The translations under genes were made by a program, and so were the position numbers. 64,000 nt of DNA, from the NCBI RefSeq assembly GCF_003712195.1, contig NZ_RDSD01000012.1:1-64000 (forward strand), in the 5' to 3' direction. The number at the start of each line of letters is the position of its first letter. Within the stretch, counting starts at the first letter, position 1. This stretch comes from Proteiniphilum sp. X52 (GTDB lineage: Bacteria > Bacteroidota > Bacteroidia > Bacteroidales > Dysgonomonadaceae). The notes below the pieces were generated by a model. The model made no database searches. It saw nothing but the letters and a program-made list of their open reading frames with translations, and was not told the DNA's origin. Below, in pieces: positions 6,918-58,743 of this stretch.

Positions 6918-8084
6918 ATGAAGCATAAAAAACTTAAGATGGGCATGGTCGGCGGCGGGAGCGATGCCTTTATCGGAGCCATACACCGTCGCGCGGCCTT
7001 CATGGATAACCTGATCGAACTGGTCTGTGGTTGTTTCAGCGCCAATCCGGAAATATCCAGAAGCTCCGGAAGGGAATATTTCATTCCGGATCACCGGATC
7101 TATGACAACTACCATGAAATGTTTGAACGTGAAATGAGACTGCCAGAGGATGAACGGTTGGATTTTGTCACTATCGTAACTCCCAATAAATGGCATTTTG
7201 AACCTGCCATGATGGCCCTGGAGAGAGGTGTTCACGTTGTGCTCGACAAACCGATCACCTTTTCTCTCGAAGAGGCGGTAAAACTCAGGGAAAAGGTAGA
7301 GGAAACCGGCCTGGTGCTGGCACTCACACACGTCTACTCGGGATATCCTGCTGTCAAAGAGGCGAAAGCACGGATTGCCAACGGAGAGTTAGGCAAACTC
7401 AGGAAAGTGTATGTGGAATATACCCAGGGGTGGCTCTCACAACGCATAGAATTGCAGGGCGGTAATAACGCCGGATGGAGAACAAATCCCAATACTACCG
7501 GTAAAGCGGGATGTATGGGCGATATTGGCACGCATGCCTGGCATTTGGCCGAATATGTGACGGGGCTGAAAGTAGAGGAGGTATGCGCTGATCTGCAGAC
7601 TTATGTGGAGGGACGGCCCGTGGATGACGACGGCTCCGCATTACTGCGTTTCGAAAACGGTGTTACCGGCGTGCTGATGGCTACCCAGATAGCTACCGGA
7701 GAAGCCAATAACATCCGCATCCGCGTATATGGCGATAAGGGGGGACTGGAATGGAGGCAGATGGACCCGAACCGGTTGATCCTGAGATGGGACGATAAAC
7801 CCACACAGGAGCTGTATATGGGAAATAACGAGTTCCTGAGCGACCTGGCCAAATGGAATACCAGAACACCTGCGGGACATCCGGAAGGTTTTATAGAAGC
7901 ATTTGCCAATATTTACCGGAATTTTGCTTTGACTGTGATGGCCAAAAGAAATGGAGAAGTACCCCTAGGTCTTATTACTGATTTTCCTGACGTGTATGAC
8001 GGTGTCAGGGGAATGCAGTTTGTGGAAACTATGGTGGAAGCTGGTAAGGATAACGACACAAAATGGTTCAAATGGATAGAATAA
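6918..8084 (+). CDS. Gfo/Idh/MocA-family oxidoreductase (cytoplasmic)
   Basis: A 388-residue NAD(P)-dependent dehydrogenase-like protein. The N-terminal Rossmann turn reads MVGGGSDAFIGAIHR, as in a subfamily acting on sugars or inositol derivatives. The usual EKP motif is DKP here (VVLDKPIT near residue 112). The C-terminal domain carries GCMGDIGTHAWHLAEYV with the conserved catalytic-type Asp and His. No signal peptide, so cytoplasmic, unlike the second family member at 10111. It is the first gene after a TATCTTTG promoter element and 134 bp before the cytochrome fusion. The exact substrate is unknown. Confidence 0.9.
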   Translation: MKHKKLKMGMVGGGSDAFIGAIHRRAAFMDNLIELVCGCFSANPEISRSSGREYFIPDHRIYDNYHEMFEREMRLPEDERLDFVTIVTPNKWHFEPAMMALERGVHVVLDKPITFSLEEAVKLREKVEETGLVLALTHVYSGYPAVKEAKARIANGELGKLRKVYVEYTQGWLSQRIELQGGNNAGWRTNPNTTGKAGCMGDIGTHAWHLAEYVTGLKVEEVCADLQTYVEGRPVDDDGSALLRFENGVTGVLMATQIATGEANNIRIRVYGDKGGLEWRQMDPNRLILRWDDKPTQELYMGNNEFLSDLAKWNTRTPAGHPEGFIEAFANIYRNFALTVMAKRNGEVPLGLITDFPDVYDGVRGMQFVETMVEAGKDNDTKWFKWIE

Positions 8085-8218
8085 AACCTATTTTTGCTAA
8101 TAAAGTGTATTTTATAGGTGCGTTTTTTTTAATAGAATAAAATTTCGTACTTTTATGGGCAAATAACGGTGGCATATAGATAGAAACTATAATTTGAAAC
8201 TTCTTATCAAAAATTACA

Positions 8219-9784
8219 ATGTCGAAGCGTGCCAGAAGGGAACGGAGAACAGGTAAAAAACTGCACCAACGAAAAGGTTTTTTCCTTCTCATCGGAATAT
8301 TCATCGGAATTGTCTTTGTTGCAGCCTTGTATCAGACTTCAGTTTATTTTTCCACGAATGAGTCGTGTATGATGTGCCATGTGCATCCTCATGCGGAAGA
8401 GAGTTGGATGTTGTCGGTGCATGTGAATAACTCGAGCGGGGTGATGGTAAACTGTGTGGATTGCCACCTCCCTCCCAAAGACGACACATGGGCTCATTAT
8501 ACGGCAAAAATATCGTTGGGGGCCCGCGACCTGTGGGGATACCTTACCAAAGATCCGGCAGAGATCGATTGGGACAGGAAATCGGAATTGGAACATGCCG
8601 TGAAATATATACCCAACGAATCCTGTGTAAAATGTCATCAGAACCTCTTCCCCCAGGGAATAAGCGATGATGGTATCACAGCACATCTCTATCACGAGGA
8701 AAATGCCGAAAAGCTCGATTTGCAGTGTATCAGTTGTCACCTTGATGTAGGGCATTATAATCCGAATTACTCCCATGGCCAGATGGTCGGCATTCCCGGG
8801 CAGACCTCCACCGCAGCGGTGGATACGAGCTTGTTCTATAAAGAACCTGCCCAGGTCGCCAGCTTTACCAACTATAGGGAACAAATCCCCGGCACGGCCG
8901 TCTCGTTCGGGATGATCGCGATCGAGGGAGGAACTTTCAGGATGGGAAGTCCCGAGAAGGAACCTTTCCGTAATCCGGACGAATCGCCGCAGCATGAGGT
9001 ATCCCTCAGCCCGTTCTTTATGGCAGAGGTGGAAACCACCTGGGATATGTACTGGGCATTCTATGCGGAGACCATGAGCGAAGGACGTACTCCTCCTGAA
9101 ACAGTCTATGCGAACAACCTGAATGCCATGGATGTGGATGCCATATCAGGCCCTACACCGCCATTCGGTTATCCTGACCAGGGTTGGGGACAGGGGGATC
9201 GTCCCGCCATAACGATGACCCATTACGCTGCCGAAACATTCTGTCAGTGGTTATCGGAGAAGACCGGTAAGAAATACCGTCTCCCTACCGAAGCGGAGTG
9301 GGAATATGCTGCCCGTGGAGGTACGGAAACACCTTATTTCTTCCCCGGAAGTCCGAAAGATTTTTCAAATCAGGGATTTATGCGGAATGTTTTCAAGCCG
9401 AAGACCGACGGCATCACCTCGCACGTGATCTATGACAAAAATAGTAACGGACGTACGCAGCCTCCTTCCGAAGTGATGGCCAATCCTTTTGGATTAAAAA
9501 ATATGCTGGGGAATGTGATGGAGTATACGGCTGACAAATATGATCCGCAAGCATATGCCAAACGCTCAGGAGTCACACATGATCCCCGCGTGACCGAAGG
9601 CGACGAATGGGTGGTGCGTGGAGGACTCTATTCGTCTGATGCGTCTGATGTGCGCAGCGCGAGCCGCAGCCATACGCAACATGAGGCATGGCTGAGGACA
9701 GACCCGCAACAACCAAAGAGTATCTGGTGGTATTCCGATATAAAAGGAATCGGATTCCGTGTAGTATGTGAACCGGAATTATAG
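8219..9784 (+). CDS. Tetraheme NapC/NrfH-like cytochrome c fused to a formylglycine-enzyme-like (SUMF1) domain
   Basis: A 521-residue fusion. A basic N-terminus and one membrane anchor (about 21-41) lead into four CxxCH heme c sites at residues 50, 79, 136 and 170, arranged as in NapC/NirT/NrfH quinol dehydrogenases. From about 230 onward the protein is a FGE-sulfatase/SUMF1 fold (IEGGTFRMGSP; YRLPTEAEWEYAARGG; GLKNMLGNVMEYTAD; C-terminal GIGFRVV). The paired active-site cysteines of true formylglycine enzymes are not evident near the C-terminus, where only one Cys follows GFR, so the domain may be structural or bind a partner. Location: inner membrane facing the periplasm. A cytochrome c maturation gene lies four genes on, which fits its heme needs. 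Confidence 0.85.
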   Translation: MSKRARRERRTGKKLHQRKGFFLLIGIFIGIVFVAALYQTSVYFSTNESCMMCHVHPHAEESWMLSVHVNNSSGVMVNCVDCHLPPKDDTWAHYTAKISLGARDLWGYLTKDPAEIDWDRKSELEHAVKYIPNESCVKCHQNLFPQGISDDGITAHLYHEENAEKLDLQCISCHLDVGHYNPNYSHGQMVGIPGQTSTAAVDTSLFYKEPAQVASFTNYREQIPGTAVSFGMIAIEGGTFRMGSPEKEPFRNPDESPQHEVSLSPFFMAEVETTWDMYWAFYAETMSEGRTPPETVYANNLNAMDVDAISGPTPPFGYPDQGWGQGDRPAITMTHYAAETFCQWLSEKTGKKYRLPTEAEWEYAARGGTETPYFFPGSPKDFSNQGFMRNVFKPKTDGITSHVIYDKNSNGRTQPPSEVMANPFGLKNMLGNVMEYTADKYDPQAYAKRSGVTHDPRVTEGDEWVVRGGLYSSDASDVRSASRSHTQHEAWLRTDPQQPKSIWWYSDIKGIGFRVVCEPEL

Positions 9785-16144: not shown

Positions 16145-16175
16145 TTTGATTGAATCTGTTTTTTATTTATTTTTG
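16145..16175 (+). promoter_or_regulatory. Consensus Bacteroidota promoter of the RiPP-like operon
   Basis: TTTG at 16145-16148, exactly 19 nt, then TATTTTTG at 16168-16175, a full match to TTTG-N19-TAnnTTTG. Transcription should start near 16182, giving an AT-rich leader of about 120 nt before the peptide gene at 16305. This is the best-matching + strand promoter in the window and separates the operon from the sugar locus. Confidence 0.75.
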
Positions 16176-16304
16176 TGAACATAGTAATGTTTTTTTTGTT
16201 CTAACTCTAATAATAACAGATATTTCTGTTGTTCAATCTTGTAAGAGTTGATAAAAAAATCACTCATTTAATTAAAATGTTTAACTTATAAAAAAAAGAC
16301 AGTA

Positions 16305-16442
16305 ATGAAAGTAAATCAAGAAGAAAAAGAAGGGAAAGAGGCTTATGAAAAGCCTGCAATCGCAGTGATTGAAATGGAAACGGAAGGCATCCTGTGTGCC
16401 AGTGGTACTGGTCCCGGCTTCGAACCCGGAGGAGAGTGGTAA
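16305..16442 (+). CDS. 45-residue precursor-like peptide of a RiPP-type operon
   Basis: A small ORF with ATG at 16305 and TAA at 16440-16442. The first half is charged and leader-like, with YEKPAIAVIEMETEG at 14-28. A short Gly/Pro-rich tail follows, with one Cys at 31, Ser33, Thr35 and a terminal Trp45. The EKP-x-hydrophobic-EhExEG pattern followed by a short Gly-rich tail recurs in small Bacteroidota peptides that I recognise only as a type. It is the first gene after a consensus promoter and is followed by a lipoprotein, a kinase, a peptidase, a PqqD-like protein, a nucleotidyltransferase and an ABC exporter, so I infer a ribosomally made, modified and exported peptide. Core and modification are unknown. 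Confidence 0.7.
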   Translation: MKVNQEEKEGKEAYEKPAIAVIEMETEGILCASGTGPGFEPGGEW

Positions 16443-16521
16443 TCAATGATATTTATTTTCCACAGGCCAATCGGAGTGAAAGGAGAATAAACAAGATTGT
16501 GATAATCAAAAATTGACTAAA

Positions 16522-17601
16522 ATGAAGAAAATATTTTATCTAATCGGAATTTCAACACTATTCCTGTTTGTTTCATGTAATAATGAGGATATTCCCCGGG
16601 ATGATGTCCCTCAATCCGTATCTGAGGTAAAGTTATATACACCTGTCATGCAAGGCGTTTTTGGAAAATTCACGGAGTCCAATTCGAATATTGGCACCAG
16701 ATCGGGAGTCATTGAGGATAATCCTGACTATGCCTTGGGCGAAAAATTTTACTGGCATGACGGAGATCAAGTCAAAATGCTGTTCTTTCCGGGGGGAGAT
16801 CTCAATGAGGAGCCAATAGAACGTATTTACACGGCGGTGGTTGCCGGGGGTGAAAAACCGGATAAGGCCCCCTTTATACCCGACCCCGGTGCGGAAGGTA
16901 TCCCTGCCGGGACCTACACTGTATATGGACTTTATCCTGCCGCTGGCTGGACCAGGGAAGGTGCCGTTTACAAGGCTGCGATATTCGAAACGGATATGGG
17001 TGGGAATTATATCAGAGAACCATTGCCTATAAGCGAGGCGTCATCCAAACATCTGGGTCGGTATATGTTTATGAAAGCCAAAGCGACAGATGTGGTAATA
17101 GGGGAGGAAGGGACTAATATGGTCGATCTATCTTATCAACACCTCGCCTCTGTGATACGGGTTCGTATAACCAATGAAAATCCTCCTTCTGCATATCCGA
17201 GATTGTTCCGGATGAGCATGGGAGTGGATGTGGATGGATCAAACGACGGATTTAATGGTCTTTTTAATCCCGAGGACGCTTATCTTGATGGCGGGATAGA
17301 CGGTGATTTGTTAGTTCCGGGACCAACTTCGAAACTAAATGTAGCAGCAGTGCAAATAGTAAATGATGCATTGAACGGGCTTGATTTTAATCTTTTTATT
17401 CCTATCCTGCCTACCGGGCCATTGGGAAGTAGTAGAATTGTATTTCAAGGTCGTGTTTACGTGAATGAAGGTGATGAAGGCTCCTCCTCCTGGGTAAAGA
17501 CTCCCGTTGTGCCAAAAGATGTAGGGGCCGGTCTTCCGCAAGGTTTTGAAGCAGGCAAGAGTTATACATTCAACCTGACAATACCGACGACAGCGCCTTA
17601 A
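16522..17601 (+). CDS. Fimbrillin-like lipoprotein in the RiPP-like operon
   Basis: About 359 residues. The signal peptide ends in a lipobox FVSC with Cys at 19 counted from the ATG at 16522; an in-frame TTG at 16513 is less likely. The rest is predicted beta-rich and resembles the Mfa/fimbrillin family of Bacteroidota: a GTRSG segment after the N-terminal strand region, then the pattern of FYWHDGDQVKMLFF, PAGTYTVYGLYPA and DLSYQHLASVIRVRI. Assignment rests on pattern, not a search. It lies between the peptide gene and the processing genes, so it may display, bind or be modified with the peptide. 23 bp separate it from the kinase gene. Confidence 0.65.
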   Translation: MKKIFYLIGISTLFLFVSCNNEDIPRDDVPQSVSEVKLYTPVMQGVFGKFTESNSNIGTRSGVIEDNPDYALGEKFYWHDGDQVKMLFFPGGDLNEEPIERIYTAVVAGGEKPDKAPFIPDPGAEGIPAGTYTVYGLYPAAGWTREGAVYKAAIFETDMGGNYIREPLPISEASSKHLGRYMFMKAKATDVVIGEEGTNMVDLSYQHLASVIRVRITNENPPSAYPRLFRMSMGVDVDGSNDGFNGLFNPEDAYLDGGIDGDLLVPGPTSKLNVAAVQIVNDALNGLDFNLFIPILPTGPLGSSRIVFQGRVYVNEGDEGSSSWVKTPVVPKDVGAGLPQGFEAGKSYTFNLTIPTTAP

Positions 17602-17624
17602 AAAGCATATAGATATTCATTATT

Positions 17625-18500
17625 TTGGAGAATAATTTTTTCTATCAGGTAGCCGGGCATCGTTTCCGGCTATCTTTTTCTGAGGATTTCGGGAAGGATG
17701 CTCTGGGTAATTATACCCCTTTTCTCGTACCGGAAGGGAAGGGCGGTTATCTCTTCCGCCTCTCCGTTGTAGACGATCTTCCTGATAAATACCTTTATGA
17801 ACAGGTAGGGCAATTCGATAACGACATCGCTGCTATTGGCGTTTTCAAGTCAGAAAACGGATATTTTCGTTTCCACATTGGTTATCCGGGAAGCAGAAGT
17901 TATTGCGCGATGGATGTCGATGCTGCTTTTCGGGTGGCACAGGTGAAACTTCCTGCCGGCGATAAGCACCGTTTTTTCTGCCTCAACAACTGCCTGATGC
18001 TGCTTTATGCGTTTTCTACAGCGAACCTTGATACGCTGATGATGCATGCTTCGGTTATTAAAAATGGAGCCGATGGTTTTATGTTTTTGGGTAAAAGCGG
18101 TACCGGAAAGAGCACGCATAGCCGGTTGTGGTTAGATCATGTAGAAGGGAGCGAGTTGTTGAACGACGACAACCCGGTAGTACGCGTGTTCGATGGAAAA
18201 GCCATTGTGTACGGTACGCCGTGGAGTGGTAAAACCCCCTGTTACCGCAATGAAGAGGCTTTGTTGAAAGGGATTGTAAAGTTGCAGCAGGCTCCTCTGA
18301 ATCAAATTAAAACCTTATCTTTGTTGCAGGCTTATGCCATAGTGCTCCCGGCCTGTTCGAGTATGCGGTGGGAAGAGGAGATCGCGTCGGGTATACATCG
18401 CGCGGTGGAGAAACTAATCGGCATGGTACCCTGCTACCGGCTGGAGTGTCTGCCGGATAAGGCCGCGGCAGATTTGTCGGCCTCCACGATAAAGAAATAA
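17625..18500 (+). CDS. HprK-like kinase, lasso-peptide-kinase type
   Basis: A 291-residue protein with an N-terminal non-catalytic region and a C-terminal HPr-kinase/PEPCK-like domain: His141 in MMHASV, P-loop GKSGTGKST at 156-164, and the second metal/nucleotide box LLNDDNPVV at about 178-186. It lacks the N-terminal domain of true HPr kinase. Stand-alone kinases of this kind phosphorylate peptides in some lasso-peptide clusters (known for that family), so phosphorylation of Ser33 or Thr35 of the nearby peptide is a testable idea. No ATG is available; TTG at 17625 is the only reasonable start, since an in-frame TAG lies just upstream. The next gene begins 2 bp after the stop. Confidence 0.75.
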   Translation: MENNFFYQVAGHRFRLSFSEDFGKDALGNYTPFLVPEGKGGYLFRLSVVDDLPDKYLYEQVGQFDNDIAAIGVFKSENGYFRFHIGYPGSRSYCAMDVDAAFRVAQVKLPAGDKHRFFCLNNCLMLLYAFSTANLDTLMMHASVIKNGADGFMFLGKSGTGKSTHSRLWLDHVEGSELLNDDNPVVRVFDGKAIVYGTPWSGKTPCYRNEEALLKGIVKLQQAPLNQIKTLSLLQAYAIVLPACSSMRWEEEIASGIHRAVEKLIGMVPCYRLECLPDKAAADLSASTIKK

Positions 18501-18502
18501 CA

Positions 18503-18943
18503 ATGCGGAGTGTCACACTGTCCAATGAAGTGATGCTTCCGGAAGTGGCAAGGATGCTTTCGGAAGGTAAACAAGTTACCATCAGGGCTAAGGGGAACAG
18601 TATGCTTCCTTTCATCGTGGGTGGAAAGGATAGTGTGGTGCTGGAAGGAAAAGGTCTCTATGGTGTGGGTGATATAGTGTTGGCGGAAATAAGGCCGAAG
18701 CTATTTGTTCTGCACCGTATCCTGAAGATAGATGATGAACAGGTTACCCTGATGGGAGATGGCAATATTTCAGGAATGGAACAGTGCCGCAGGGAAAATA
18801 TTTGCGGTCGGGTCATAACCATTATCCATAAAGGAAGGCAGATTGATTGCGATAGCAAAAAGTCGCACCGCAAAGCCCGCCTGTGGAAAAGTCTCTTGCC
18901 GGTAAGAAGATATTTATTGGGAATATATAGACGAATAATATAA
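18503..18943 (+). CDS. S24/S26-type peptidase (Ser-His signal-peptidase-like)
   Basis: A 146-residue protein. GNSMLPFI at 31-38 places the nucleophile at Ser33, GDIVLAE at 57-63 is the family turn, and HRIL at 71-74 has His where bacterial leader peptidases have Lys, as in archaeal and ER-type signal peptidases. The GDGN box at 85-88 also fits that type. It has no obvious N-terminal membrane anchor, so it may be cytoplasmic or peripheral. In this operon it is the likely leader-removing protease, acting before or during export (inference). It starts 2 bp after the kinase stop and ends 5 bp before the PqqD gene. Confidence 0.8.
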   Translation: MRSVTLSNEVMLPEVARMLSEGKQVTIRAKGNSMLPFIVGGKDSVVLEGKGLYGVGDIVLAEIRPKLFVLHRILKIDDEQVTLMGDGNISGMEQCRRENICGRVITIIHKGRQIDCDSKKSHRKARLWKSLLPVRRYLLGIYRRII

Positions 18944-18948
18944 AGACT

Positions 18949-19218
18949 ATGCGAATAAAACAAGGATTTAAACTCCGTACTGTGGGCAAGGAGTATATTG
19001 TGGCCGGGGAAGGGCTGGCTCAGATAGATTTTAATAAATTGATTTCCCTCAACCGTTCGGCGGCTTATTTATGGCAGGAAGTCGAGGGAAAGGATTTCGA
19101 TGAACAGACCCTCGCGGATTTATTGGTGTCGAAATATGACATTCCAGCCGGACAGGCGTTAGCTGATGCCGCCGATATAGCAACAAACTGGATCGAAGCT
19201 GGCATTGCGGAAAGATGA
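18949..19218 (+). CDS. PqqD-like peptide-recognition protein (RRE domain)
   Basis: An 89-residue protein with the PqqD fold pattern: N-terminal strands, then ISLNRSAAYLWQEVEG at 32-47 (the family LN-x-A-x-x-W signature) and C-terminal helices. PqqD-like proteins bind the leader of a RiPP precursor and deliver it to the modifying enzyme. Its presence is the strongest single sign that this operon handles a ribosomal peptide. The stop codon overlaps the nucleotidyltransferase ATG as ATGA. Confidence 0.85.
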   Translation: MRIKQGFKLRTVGKEYIVAGEGLAQIDFNKLISLNRSAAYLWQEVEGKDFDEQTLADLLVSKYDIPAGQALADAADIATNWIEAGIAER

Positions 19219-20342
19219 GTCGTGCAGAGGAACAATTTTTCGCCCTGTTGCAGTCGGGATTATGGGGTACTCCGGTGGACACTTCCCTGTTCTGCCGCGA
19301 CACGGACTGGCCGGCAATCCTGAAAATAGCCGTTATGCAAACGGTGAGCGGTATTGTTTTCGATGGTATATCGGGTCTCTCTTCTGAACTACAGCCTCCG
19401 GCCACAATCATGCGCCGGCTTTATCAGACGGTTATCCGCATAGAACAAAGCCATGAGTTGTTCAACGAACGGTTGACCCGCATGATAGCTTTGCTGCAAT
19501 CCGGAGATGTCCATCCCATACTGCTCAAAGGGCAGGGAGTGGCACGCAATTATCCGAATCCTGTCCGTCGCCAGTGTGGCGATATAGATTTATACATCGG
19601 GAAGAAAGACTACAAAAGAGCGTGTGAATTGGCTCTTGGGAGGGGAATTGTTTCCAATGGCATATTAGAAAGCCATAAACATTTTCATTTCGACTGGGAT
19701 GGCGTGAAAATTGAACTTCATCGTGTCGTTGAAAAGCTTCCTGATCCATTCAAAAACAAAAGATTTCAGTGCTGGACTCAATATCATTTGCAAAAAAATA
19801 AATTGAATGTCTGGAATTTGAATAATACGGAGGTGCTGCTTCCGCCGGCAAATTTTGATGCCTTATATATCTTTAATCATGCTTTCCATCATTTTATTTC
19901 GGATGGAATAGGGTGTCGTCAATTGTGTGACTGGGTAATGTATCTCCATAGATTTCATGCTCAAATAGACAGGCAGGAGTTAATGAAGGACCTTAACGAT
20001 TTCCGGTTGTTGCGCGCATGGCAGATTTTCGGTTATATAGCCGTACACCAGCTGGGTCTGACAAAAGAAGAATTTCCATTTTATACTGACAAATTCAGGG
20101 AAGCATCTCAAAAAATAATATTGAGAGATATCCTGTTACTGGGTAATTTCGGACATTATGATCCGAAATGGAAGACACGTCCCCCCGGTTATCTATCCGG
20201 GAAACTGCACAACTTCAGGATGAAAAACCGGAGAGCACTGAAACTATTTTCGATCATCGGGGAAAATGTGTCACTCTACTATATTTATTATTTAGTCATT
20301 GGCATGCAGCAAATAGTAAATGACAAATTTAATAGACATTGA
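19215..20342 (+). CDS. Nucleotidyltransferase-family protein (NTP_transf_5-like)
   Basis: A 375-residue protein with a polymerase-beta-like nucleotidyltransferase core: LLKGQGVARNYPNPVRRQCG followed by DIDLYIG, giving the metal-binding pair Asp123 and Asp125. This family recurs with PqqD-like proteins and HprK-like kinases in RiPP clusters, including some lasso clusters. It could transfer a nucleotide or phosphate group to the peptide or act on a phosphorylated intermediate (inference). A 4-bp overlap with the PqqD gene indicates translational coupling; a GTG-started ABC gene follows after 3 bp. Confidence 0.8.
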   Translation: MSRAEEQFFALLQSGLWGTPVDTSLFCRDTDWPAILKIAVMQTVSGIVFDGISGLSSELQPPATIMRRLYQTVIRIEQSHELFNERLTRMIALLQSGDVHPILLKGQGVARNYPNPVRRQCGDIDLYIGKKDYKRACELALGRGIVSNGILESHKHFHFDWDGVKIELHRVVEKLPDPFKNKRFQCWTQYHLQKNKLNVWNLNNTEVLLPPANFDALYIFNHAFHHFISDGIGCRQLCDWVMYLHRFHAQIDRQELMKDLNDFRLLRAWQIFGYIAVHQLGLTKEEFPFYTDKFREASQKIILRDILLLGNFGHYDPKWKTRPPGYLSGKLHNFRMKNRRALKLFSIIGENVSLYYIYYLVIGMQQIVNDKFNRH

Positions 20343-20345
20343 ACC

Positions 20346-21998
20346 GTGATAGTCGACAGTATACGACAGCTCCTGAAATATTTGCAAGGCATACGTTTTC
20401 GCATCGTGCTGAATAGCCTGGCAGGTATCTTGAATGTCTGTGCCGGCCTATTCTTTGTATGGGTCTCAAAACAACTGATCGATATCGCCACCCGTTCCAT
20501 GGAAGGGAACATGACCCACTATATAGTGCTGCTGATAGCGACTATGTGCAGTCAAATTCTCTTGTCGGTATTGAAGAATCGCCTGGAAACCGAGACGGAT
20601 ATATATTTCAAGAACAAATGGCGGCACAATCTTTTTTCCCATCTGATGATCAGCGCGTGGAATGGCAAGGAGAGTTTTCATAGCGGCGATGCTGTCAACC
20701 GTATTGAAGAAGATGTGCGGGTAGTCGCCGAGGGTATATGTAAATCAGTGCCTGCGGTAATTATCACTTCTTTCCAGTTTCTGGGCGCCTTTCTTTTCCT
20801 AAGCAAACTCAATACCCGATTGGCCTGGACGCTTATTTTCATTATGCCCCTATTTTTGGTGTTGAGCAAAGTATATGTAAAACGGATGCGCCGCTTCACA
20901 AAAGAGATACGTAACCTGGACAGCCAGGTGCAATCCCATATTCAGGAGAAATTGCAATATAAGGTCTTGATCCAGACCCTCGCGCAAAACATCCCGGTGG
21001 CCGACAAGCTCGATGCTATTCAATCCATATTGTATAACCGGGTGATGAAGCGCGCAAACTTCACCGTCTTCTCGCGCATGCTGATCATGGCCGGATTTGC
21101 CACAGGTTATCTCATTGCTTTCCTCTGGGGAATAAAGGGTATCTATGAAGGTGCCATCACATTTGGGATGATGACGGCCTTCCTGCAACTGGTCGGACAG
21201 ATCCAGCGTCCGCTGGTGGAGCTCAGCCAGTATATACCTTCTTTGGCACATACGATTACTTCTGCTGAAAGGCTGAACGAACTGGATGACCTGACCACTG
21301 AGGTGCAGGGTGAACAAGAGATGCTCGACGGACAGGTGGGTATACGTCTTGAAAATATTTCGTTTGCTTATCCCGATGGTAAAAGACAGATAATAGAGCA
21401 TTTATCGTATGACTTCACACCCGGTAGCCGCACCGCAATCGTGGGTGAAACGGGGGTAGGTAAAAGCACCCTTATACGGCTGATGCTTGCCTTACTCCAA
21501 CCCCGGGAAGGAAAGGTCTGTTTGTATAATTCCATGCGGGAACGGGAAGCCACTCCGCTCACACGCTGTAACCTGATATATGTCCCCCAGGGAAACACTT
21601 TGCTTAGCGGAACCATACGTGATAATCTGCTGTTGGGTAATCCGGATGCCACAGACCAGGAACTCCGGAAAGTGTTAACGACTGCGGTTGCTGATTTCAT
21701 ATACGACCTGCCTGATGGGTTGGATACCCTTTGCGGGGAGCGTGGAACGGGCTTAAGCGAAGGCCAGGCTCAACGTCTCTGCATAGCACGCGGATTGTTG
21801 CGACCGGGAAATATACTGTTGTTAGACGAATTCAGCTCTTCTCTGGATAGGGAAACTGAACGTCTGCTTATGGAACGCCTTATCTCTCAGGCCGAAGATA
21901 AAACCCTGATATTTATCACACACAGGGAAATCGTGGCACAATATTGCGACCAAACAATCAAGTTGGAGCGGAAAGACAGTGAATCATCCTACGCATAA
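20346..21998 (+). CDS. ABC exporter, fused permease and ATPase
   Basis: A 550-residue half-transporter. The N-terminal six-helix permease occupies about residues 15-300. The ATPase follows: Walker A GETGVGKST at about 366-374, signature LSEGQAQR near 469 and Walker B ILLLDEFSS near 490. There is no N-terminal C39 peptidase domain, so leader removal must be done elsewhere, consistent with the separate S26-type peptidase. It probably exports the mature peptide as a homodimer. GTG start. It closes the operon; the SBF transporter beyond is on the opposite strand. Confidence 0.88.
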   Translation: MIVDSIRQLLKYLQGIRFRIVLNSLAGILNVCAGLFFVWVSKQLIDIATRSMEGNMTHYIVLLIATMCSQILLSVLKNRLETETDIYFKNKWRHNLFSHLMISAWNGKESFHSGDAVNRIEEDVRVVAEGICKSVPAVIITSFQFLGAFLFLSKLNTRLAWTLIFIMPLFLVLSKVYVKRMRRFTKEIRNLDSQVQSHIQEKLQYKVLIQTLAQNIPVADKLDAIQSILYNRVMKRANFTVFSRMLIMAGFATGYLIAFLWGIKGIYEGAITFGMMTAFLQLVGQIQRPLVELSQYIPSLAHTITSAERLNELDDLTTEVQGEQEMLDGQVGIRLENISFAYPDGKRQIIEHLSYDFTPGSRTAIVGETGVGKSTLIRLMLALLQPREGKVCLYNSMREREATPLTRCNLIYVPQGNTLLSGTIRDNLLLGNPDATDQELRKVLTTAVADFIYDLPDGLDTLCGERGTGLSEGQAQRLCIARGLLRPGNILLLDEFSSSLDRETERLLMERLISQAEDKTLIFITHREIVAQYCDQTIKLERKDSESSYA

Positions 21999-55018: not shown

Positions 55019-55049
55019 CAAATGTACAAAAAATGTCTGTTTTGGCAAA
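55019..55049 (-). promoter_or_regulatory. Consensus promoter of dgkA and the nuclease-helicase
   Basis: On the minus strand TTTG (55046-55049), exactly 19 nt, then TACATTTG (55019-55026), a full Bacteroidota promoter about 105 bp upstream of dgkA. Confidence 0.75.
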
Positions 55050-56733: not shown

Positions 56734-58743
56734 ATGGATTTTCAACTTACATCGGCATATCAACCTACCGGAGATCAACCGGAAGCAATCGCGGCGCTGC
56801 TGGAGGGACTCCGGCAGAAAGTCCCTTATCAGACCCTGTTAGGGGTTACCGGATCGGGTAAGACTTTTACGGTGGCCAATGTGATCGCGCAGATAAATAA
56901 ACCCACCTTGGTGCTGAGTCACAATAAAACTCTCGCGGCGCAACTTTACAGCGAGTTCAAGAGTTTCTTTCCAAATAATGCGGTGGAATATTTTGTCTCC
57001 TACTACGATTATTATCAGCCGGAGGCTTATATCCCCACGACCGATACCTATATAGAAAAGGATCTTTCCATCAACGACGAGATTGAAAAACTGCGGCTCG
57101 CAGCCACCTCCTCACTGCTTTCGGGAAGAAACGACGTGATAGTGGTTTCTTCAGTTTCCTGCCTGTATGGCATCGGTAATCCCGAAGATTTTAACAAAAC
57201 CACTGTCGATATCCGTGAGGGGCAGGTGATGGAGCGCGACCAATTATTGCGCCTGCTGGTAAACAGTCTTTATTCGCGTAACGAAACGGCCGATTTCAAC
57301 CGGGGGAATTTCCGGGTGAAAGGCGACACGGTAGATGTTTTCCTGGCATATCACGATTATATCATCCGCATTATCTTTTGGGGGGATGAGATAGAGAGTA
57401 TTGAATCGGTGGATCCACTCAGCGGGATCACCGTTGAACGGTTGGATTCTTACCGGATATTTCCGGCCAACCTTTTTGTCACCACCCAGGAACGCATTAA
57501 CAGGGCGATAGATGAAATACAGATCGACCTGGGAAAACAGGTGGAGTTCTTCCAGTCTATCGGGAAACCGTATGAGGCCAAGCGACTTTACGAAAGGGTG
57601 ACCTATGACCTGGAGATGATCAAGGAGGTAGGTTATTGCTCCGGGATAGAGAACTATTCCCGCTATTTCGACGGCCGGCCCGCCGGCACACGTCCTTTCT
57701 GTCTCCTCGACTTCTTTCCCGAAGACTATCTCACTGTTATTGACGAAAGCCATGTCACCATCCCGCAGATCCGCGCCATGTACGGGGGCGATCACTCCCG
57801 CAAGATCAATCTTGTGGAATTTGGTTTCCGGCTTCCGGCAGCGATCGATAACCGTCCGCTGATGTTCGAAGAGTTTGAAGCGATCACCCCTGAGATTATT
57901 TTTGTGAGCGCCACCCCTGCCGATTATGAACTGGAAAAATCGGAAGGGATTGTGGTCGACCAGTTGATTCGTCCTACAGGGTTGCTCGATCCGCCTATAG
58001 ATGTACGTCCCAGCCTGAACCAGATCGACGACCTGATGGAAGAGATCCGGCAGCGCGTGGAGGTCGATGAACGGGTGTTGGTGACCACCCTCACCAAACG
58101 GATGGCCGAAGAACTGACCGATTACCTGACAAAGAATGGTGTGCGGTGTAATTATATCCACTCCGATGTGGAGACATTGGAGAGGGTGAAAATCATGGAT
58201 GAATTGCGTGGCGGGTTGTTCGACGTGTTGATCGGTGTGAATCTGTTGCGCGAAGGGTTGGATCTCCCCGAGGTGTCGCTTGTGGCAGTACTGGATGCCG
58301 ACAAGGAAGGATTTCTCCGCTCCCATCGATCCCTCACCCAGACAGCCGGCCGCGCGGCACGTAACGTGAACGGAAGGGTGATTTTCTATGCCGATAAAAT
58401 GACCGACAGCATGCGGATGACTATCGACGAGACCAATCGCAGGCGTGAAAAGCAGATAAAATACAATGAAGAGCATGGCATCACACCGCGGCAGATAAAG
58501 AAGGGGCGCTCATCGGCATTGACCGGAGAATATAAAATAACGGCTGAGGCAAAAGCATACATAGAACCCGATTATTACGCTTTGGCGGCGGAACCGATCG
58601 CTGACTATGCCTCGACCGGCGACCTGAAGAAAAAAATAGAACAAACCCGGAAAGCGATGATGGCAGCGGCAAAAAAACTGGAATTCCTGGAGGCAGCACA
58701 ATTGCGGGATCAGTTGATCATGCTGGAAGAAAAGTTGAAATAA
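56734..58743 (+). CDS. uvrB: Excinuclease ABC subunit B
   Basis: A 669-residue DNA-damage recognition helicase of nucleotide excision repair. Walker A GVTGSGKTFT near residue 37, the beta-hairpin region YYDYYQPEAYIP, DEIEKLR, DESHVTIPQ, LREGLDLPEVSLVAVLDADKEGFLRS, TAGRAARN, and the C-terminal UVR motif (KKLEFLEAAQLRDQLIMLEE) that binds UvrC. Full normal length. Confidence 0.97.
   Translation: MDFQLTSAYQPTGDQPEAIAALLEGLRQKVPYQTLLGVTGSGKTFTVANVIAQINKPTLVLSHNKTLAAQLYSEFKSFFPNNAVEYFVSYYDYYQPEAYIPTTDTYIEKDLSINDEIEKLRLAATSSLLSGRNDVIVVSSVSCLYGIGNPEDFNKTTVDIREGQVMERDQLLRLLVNSLYSRNETADFNRGNFRVKGDTVDVFLAYHDYIIRIIFWGDEIESIESVDPLSGITVERLDSYRIFPANLFVTTQERINRAIDEIQIDLGKQVEFFQSIGKPYEAKRLYERVTYDLEMIKEVGYCSGIENYSRYFDGRPAGTRPFCLLDFFPEDYLTVIDESHVTIPQIRAMYGGDHSRKINLVEFGFRLPAAIDNRPLMFEEFEAITPEIIFVSATPADYELEKSEGIVVDQLIRPTGLLDPPIDVRPSLNQIDDLMEEIRQRVEVDERVLVTTLTKRMAEELTDYLTKNGVRCNYIHSDVETLERVKIMDELRGGLFDVLIGVNLLREGLDLPEVSLVAVLDADKEGFLRSHRSLTQTAGRAARNVNGRVIFYADKMTDSMRMTIDETNRRREKQIKYNEEHGITPRQIKKGRSSALTGEYKITAEAKAYIEPDYYALAAEPIADYASTGDLKKKIEQTRKAMMAAAKKLEFLEAAQLRDQLIMLEEKLK

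Follow-up and report, generated by a model that had tools for sequence, protein, structure and literature searches.

The window examined here is a stretch of 64,000 nucleotides from Proteiniphilum sp. X52 (NZ_RDSD01000012.1), which lies in contig 5 of a 4.43 Mb genome that is 99.97% complete. On its forward strand it carries an operon (16145-21998) that looks like a pathway for a ribosomally synthesized and post-translationally modified peptide (RiPP), and that is probably related in its working to the linear polyphosphorylated peptides (LPPs) of Bacillota. An earlier note had described here a promoter, a gene for a 45-residue peptide, a lipoprotein gene and five tightly packed genes, and every one of these was found in its place by direct reading of the sequence. 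The peptide open reading frame (ORF) spans 16305-16442 and ends in a stop codon at 16440-16442. Residues 1-30 (16305-16394) form the leader, with the motif Y14xxP17, and residues 31-45 (16395-16439) the presumed core, where Ser33 is core residue 3; the border, after ...Ile-Leu, is placed by comparison with the published LPP system (PMC13381572). Next comes a fimbrillin-like surface lipoprotein with lipobox Cys19 (16522-17601), presumably the cognate partner of the peptide. It is followed, 23 nt downstream, by an HprK-like kinase with a TTG start (17625-18500) and, after a further 2 nt, by a serine protease of the S24/S26 type, similar to signal peptidases (18503-18943). A gap of 5 nt separates the latter from a PqqD-type RiPP recognition element (RRE; 18949-19218), which overlaps by 4 nt a nucleotidyltransferase of the NTP_transf_5 family (19215-20342). 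Finally, 3 nt further on, there is an MsbA-like ABC exporter that lacks a C39 domain (20346-21998; PF00664, PF00005).

The PqqD and NTP_transf_5 proteins are assigned by clear Pfam matches (PF05402, E 8e-11, and PF14907, E 2e-44, respectively), while the matches of the peptidase and the kinase fall under the curated cut-offs of Pfam and NCBIfam. Nevertheless, the identities of the latter two are retained because of their invariant residues and, for the peptidase, a confident predicted fold. In the kinase, the P-loop GxSGTGKST, H141, D181 and D182 are invariant in 22 of 22 rows, and a profile search of the PDB returns phosphoenolpyruvate carboxykinases at E 0.002-0.013, with one at 0.098. In the peptidase, S33, H71 and D86 are invariant in 20 of 20 rows and again in all 41 rows of a second set, which was picked by the motif GxSMxP, so that the serine, though not the histidine or the aspartate, is partly preselected. 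The predicted structure of this protein has a predicted local distance difference test score (pLDDT) of 91; its best fold match is the C-domain of LexA (E 3e-4), followed by signal peptidases (E 2.5e-3 or above), and its sequence matches SEC11C at E 0.001. The RRE conserves D73 in all of 20 rows and N35 in at least 90% of them, its best PDB match is the lasso RRE TfuB1 (E 1e-5), and it is the single PqqD protein found in the host genome with a PqqD profile at E ≤ 10. The G122-D123-x-D125 residues of the nucleotidyltransferase are invariant (20/20).

There is no cyclase in the cluster, and homology supports the earlier proposal of a RiPP-like pathway that has no ring enzyme at the locus. Radical SAM, YcaO and LanM enzymes had also been named as missing; no model for them, or for C39, occurs among the listed Pfam matches of the operon proteins (16 families for the ABC protein), a scan confined to the operon, as no genome-wide search was made for them. 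The idea that the transporter itself removes the leader with a C39 domain was considered and rejected, as the ABC protein has no C39 match.

The window peptide itself has no Pfam or NCBIfam match at E ≤ 0.1. A profile built for the precursor, in which Y14 and P17 are invariant (26/26 rows), finds 74 places in 33 of the 101 genomes examined from the host's family. The leader is conserved across 65 distinct precursors, in line with the conservation that the earlier note had made a test of its proposal, and a chance ORF is rejected on this ground. Mean normalised similarity among precursors is 0.59 for the leader and 0.24 for the core. Thus, the features generally expected of a RiPP are present: a conserved leader, a variable core, and a linked RRE and modifying enzymes. 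A serine stands 2-5 residues past [IL]L-like residues in 62 of the 65 precursors by script and in two more by eye, with one lacking it, and 59 of the 65 have an aromatic residue in the final four positions. Where the core could be measured (61 precursors), it is 12-20 residues long in 55; the serine is the third core residue in 36 of the 61 and the second or fourth in the remainder. The host genome holds three precursors, that of the window and those at C7:84626-84760 and C8:86441-86587 (here and below, C numbers are contigs, G numbers genomes and L numbers loci), the last two being further peptide and lipoprotein pairs outside the window. These two pairs look accessory because nothing longer than 580 bases from the 8-kb regions around them is matched in the two nearest relatives, at 68-85% identity. 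At L088 (G051:C5:76304-76408) there is a lone, apparently decayed precursor-like ORF, without the usual serine in its core and with a fimbrillin-like fragment after it.

The same set of genes has been described in Bacillota, so that the operon is not the undescribed system it had been taken for. According to the main text of PMC13381572, published in May 2026, LPP pathways comprise a precursor with a YxxP leader, the RRE LppB, the HprK-like kinase LppK, the archaeal-type signal peptidase LppS, the NTP transferase LppN and the MsbA-like LppD, and have no cyclase. LppK puts multiple phosphates on core Ser3 of the precursor LppA, and LppS, aided by LppB, removes the leader; the role of LppN, the final product and its biological role are stated there as unknown. 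The window operon resembles this system in that an SpI-like peptidase, a discrete RRE, an HprK-like kinase, an NTP transferase and an MsbA-like exporter are co-located, which makes them putative counterparts of LppS, LppB, LppK, LppN and LppD. YxxP in the leader and the lack of a cyclase or lasso B2 protein in the cluster are also common to both, as is a serine shortly past the leader. In addition, N35 and D73 of the RRE correspond by sequence position, rather than by structure, to N33 and D70 of LppB, and S33, H71 and D86 of the peptidase to S29, H68 and D93 of LppS. Homology, rather than chemistry, makes phosphoryl transfer, as proposed earlier, the most likely modification, perhaps with a further nucleotidyl or sugar transfer. 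Unlike the published LPPs, the set described here is found in Bacteroidota, with several dispersed precursors per genome that are paired with fimbrillin-like lipoproteins.

Paeninodin-like and Bsf phosphorylated lasso peptides, as presented in PMC10368454, share with the window an RRE, a kinase, a nucleotidyltransferase, an ABC exporter and a YxxP or WxxP leader, but they have a transglutaminase-like B2 peptidase and a macrolactam cyclase where the window set has a signal-peptidase-like protease. Earlier RiPP mining in Bacteroidales reports nine selected clusters, all of other types (PMC10352776), and a survey of RREs covers related families (PMC12710340). In the open-licence literature, no description was found of this set in Bacteroidota, nor any that joins fimbrillin with PqqD.

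A search of genome neighbourhoods, as suggested in the earlier note, indicates that the make-up of the neighbourhood is not random. The kinase profile matches 32 of the 101 genomes of the family, Dysgonomonadaceae, and of 36 kinase loci examined, 30 have an S26 peptidase, 27 PqqD, 26 NTP_transf_5 and 26 the ABC exporter no more than 6.5 kb away on the strand of the kinase, with all four at 22. Dysgonomonas hofstadii DSM 104969 (G005), a member of the family, carries the set at L034 and also has a precursor. Presence of precursor and kinase is associated (both in 28 genomes, kinase only in 4, precursor only in 5, neither in 64; Fisher p 9e-16, which becomes 1e-10 once the 11 genomes from which profile rows were taken are set aside). 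The kinase-only genomes are G077, G085, G014 and G015, a divergent precursor being seen in the last two, and the five precursor-only genomes are drafts of 150-470 contigs. Three kinase loci (L035, L041, L043) have none of the four partners nearby. At L035 (G005:C23, 7237-7884) there is a shortened Dysgonomonas hofstadii copy of the kinase that lacks partner genes, and at L043 (8395-9346) the partnerless kinase directly adjoins the end of a precursor-like ORF.

Outside the family, a kinase scan of named genomes was followed at the best 80 of at least 549 relatives, some of which end at contig ends. These include Bacteroidales (Prevotella, Paraprevotella, Muribaculaceae and Alistipes records) and three Fibrobacter rows. 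Profile matches identify S26 at 73 of these loci and PqqD at 61, and by the profile counts kinase, S26 and PqqD form the core of the set outside the family. In a tree of 115 kinases, those of Fibrobacter (L149, L157, L174) nest among Prevotella and other Bacteroidales kinases, which suggests transfer. A metagenome-assembled genome labelled Acidobacteriota (L119) has a Bacteroidales-like set with a precursor and is possibly misbinned or mislabelled. The gene 5′ of the kinase belongs to one family at L121, L133, L138, L148 and L153, where the L121 member is a C11 (clostripain) peptidase, and to a second at L111, L112 and L166, where the L111 member is an M6 peptidase.

Some of the sets differ in their cores and surroundings. 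A divergent group (L048, L055, L060, L061) has longer cores that end in GDGGxTMG[DH]F, with Wzc-like genes nearby at L048 and L061 and a glycosyltransferase at L048. Likewise, L037 adjoins a polysaccharide export gene and L038 a glycosyltransferase, and these capsule-type neighbours parallel the capsule loci in which Bacillota LPPs are reported to occur (PMC13381572). A related set exists in Clostridia, since plasmid pNP243 of Butyrivibrio fibrisolvens (L253, NZ_CP146964.1) has a kinase, a small YxxP ORF (8458-8631), PqqD and an S24/S26 peptidase in a row at 7424-9447, with ABC and NTP genes also present and polysaccharide genes around them. The kinase, S26, PqqD and NTP_transf_5 profiles match there at E 1e-17 or better, and the peptidase seems, by eye, to be without the catalytic Asp. 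Lasso clusters in which an HPr kinase accompanies a nucleotidyltransferase have been reported before from this species (PMC7533575).

The lipoprotein is a recurrent companion of the precursor, a point that the earlier note did not make. By script, the next gene encodes a lipoprotein signal after 50 of the 65 precursors (one, L203, looks false), a signal is visible by eye after five more (L055, L060, L061, L212, L232), and four precursors are too near a contig end for the downstream gene to be judged. A total of 60 downstream proteins were found, and 56 were scanned after L043, L203, L088 and L045 were dropped. Cys19 of the window lipoprotein is conserved at 90% or more in 56 relatives. Domains detected among the 56 partners include Fib_succ_major (5), F5/8C (2), laminin-G (2) and BspA-type leucine-rich repeats (LRR; 2). 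Compared with ordinary Mfa_like_1 lipoproteins, these proteins differ both in their pairing with a RiPP-like precursor and in such variable C-terminal domains. A modification enzyme hidden between peptide and kinase was also considered and rejected, as the proteins encoded right after the precursors at L040, L047, L048, L049, L052, L054 and L060 look like lipoproteins of the fimbrillin type.

The best evidence obtained here that core and lipoprotein work together comes from an exchange of alleles between close relatives. Between the window and G051, DNA identity is 92.5-95.1% in the kinase, S26, PqqD, NTP_transf_5 and ABC genes, while the core is 33% identical and the lipoprotein 52%. Between G051 and G054, by contrast, the enzymes are only 79.5-84.0% identical and the leader codons 75%, whereas the core is 96% and the lipoprotein 94% identical. 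One border of the exchanged segment is close to where the leader ends, and the other immediately upstream of the kinase gene. Because G051 and G054 share core and lipoprotein while their enzymes and leaders diverge, core and lipoprotein moved as one allele at least once, and leader and enzymes did not. Mantel tests that set similarity among cores against similarity among lipoproteins add weak support for the pairing. The partial r is 0.51 when a divergent group and L045, whose supposed lipoprotein is a kinase, are included, and 0.34 and 0.31 (p 0.001 and 0.002) when they are left out; it is counted as weak because it falls to 0.19 (p 0.049) once the EKP group is also removed.

The explanation that we favour, with a probability of about 0.68, is that the operon is an LPP-like RiPP pathway of Bacteroidota whose products are short phosphorylated peptides without a ring, each paired with a surface lipoprotein of its own. 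By analogy with the biochemistry published for Bacillota LPPs, from which binding, phosphorylation and cleavage are all carried over, the PqqD protein would grip the YxxP motif of the 45-residue precursor and the HprK-like kinase would phosphorylate the conserved S33, just past the leader. The signal-peptidase-like protease, together with the RRE, would then cut after about ...Ile-Leu to give a linear core of around 15 residues. NTP_transf_5 may decorate the phosphate, and the MsbA-like pump would export the product. One enzyme set may serve several precursors, of which the host genome has three. The genetics suggests that the fimbrillin-like lipoprotein after each precursor is its partner, perhaps as a receptor, a carrier or a means of self-protection.

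Several observations weigh against this explanation. The LPP leader consensus, YxxPxVLxHQxIxFETxxS, is not matched beyond YxxP and a serine at a similar distance, the cores are mostly 12-20 residues long where that of LppA has 45, and LPPs are defined by an RRE clade while the present set is likened to them through its gene set and key residues (PMC13381572). On account of the leader and of the clade, it is classed as LPP-like and not as a proven member. LppB (9x8z) is absent from the eight PDB matches of the RRE at E ≤ 1, and LppN was inactive when the Bacillota pathway was reconstituted (PMC13381572). At the best 80 loci outside the family, NTP_transf_5 is detected at only 13, the ABC exporter at 36 (strict cut-off) and a precursor at 12. 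The set is also sparse across the phylum, since among 392 evenly sampled genomes eight match the kinase profile, three of these weakly (E 1e-15 to 1e-22), and three match that of the precursor, two weakly (2e-4, 8e-4) and the third being the host, all with the kinase. As for the lipoprotein, 6 of the 65 precursors have none downstream (one of these, L214, has a fimbrillin-like fragment next), only 12 of the 56 partners match Mfa_like_1 (PF13149) at E ≤ 1e-3, the window protein matches it below the cut-off (E 0.0033), its structure model from five rows has a pLDDT of 28, and a single allele exchange was observed.

Some of these points would fit an origin convergent with LPP, in which a lasso-type pathway lost its cyclase and B2 protein and recruited a signal-peptidase-like protease, with a similar working as the outcome. 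Such convergence falls somewhat short of even odds. It is favoured by the lasso RRE as best PDB match and by the leader that differs past YxxP, and there is a precedent in the separate emergence of the LPP and paeninodin RREs from lasso RREs (PMC13381572). The only Bacillota kinase in the tree has a very long branch, so that the tree does not settle descent from LPP, which also leaves room for it. Nevertheless, it is improbable that two pathways recruited the same five unusual partners independently, and the Butyrivibrio plasmid described above has all of them in a member of Clostridia. The older possibility of a lasso peptide whose ring enzyme is encoded elsewhere can draw on the YxxP leader and PqqD, which are as in lasso pathways (PMC10368454), but it is largely refuted and very improbable. 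In the host genome, the cyclase family PF00733 has no match over its cut-off of 21 bits, which 11 of 14 control genomes exceed; three partial matches of 17-20 bits cover about 60 of 354 positions each. Similarly, the B2 family PF13471 has none over its cut-off of 26 bits in nine genomes, with three matches at about 22-23 bits, of which that of the host (22.9 bits) covers 42 of 117 positions.

Other doubts concern what the product is. It may be that the phosphate is an intermediate for NTP_transf_5 and that the final product is mainly a nucleotidylated peptide or one decorated with a sugar phosphate, which is possible, if doubtful. The catalytic residues of this enzyme are invariant, as noted above, and a later step is indicated by PMC13381572 and by work on pseudomycoidin cited in PMC7533575; on the other hand, the LppN result speaks against it, as does the failure to detect the gene at 67 of the best 80 loci, although it may lie elsewhere in those genomes. 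It is unlikely that the pathway mainly acts on or yields the lipoprotein, with the peptide as an adaptor or regulator in that process. The tight pairing of the two and joint exchange would be expected in that case, but a YxxP leader, an RRE and a leader-peptidase-like protease suit a modified small peptide, and it is the core that varies while the leader is kept.

Upstream of the precursor, 16145-16175 (+) matches a promoter of the Bacteroidota type, as TTTG-N19-TATTTTTG. The pattern searched for was TTTG-N19..21-TANNTTTG, which we take to be typical of the phylum. It has three matches on both strands of the window against 0.8 expected, with three or more in 6 of 100 shuffles, so that taken alone the match is weak. 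The TATTTTTG box is unchanged in the two nearest relatives, G051 and G054, while TTTG at 16145 is not exactly preserved there. The other two exact matches are at 55019-55049 (-) and 57874-57904 (+). The flanking genes scanned encode a ResB/CcsA-like cytochrome c assembly protein, a Gfo/Idh oxidoreductase and a protein with a weak SBF match, and have no evident link to the operon.

Relative to the main text of PMC13381572, where LPPs are called restricted to Bacillota and no word starting with 'Bacteroid' occurs, three aspects are new. The set is widespread in Bacteroidales and extends to Fibrobacter; it has multiple dispersed precursors that usually have a lipoprotein gene next to them; and, in the closest relatives, core and lipoprotein were exchanged as one allele. 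The recurrent surface lipoprotein gives a concrete lead to the function of LPP-type peptides, and the short cores mean small peptides that are easy targets for mass spectrometry. In addition, the natural allele exchange points to core and lipoprotein as the pair on which specificity could be tested. Tentatively, the whole might be a modular system of self-recognition or of ligand and receptor, in which a shared phosphopeptide machine makes several peptides that are read by, or mounted on, their own lipoproteins, core and lipoprotein together being the specificity allele. If so, the joint would lie near the border of leader and core, and a strain could switch its peptide type while its enzymes stay untouched.

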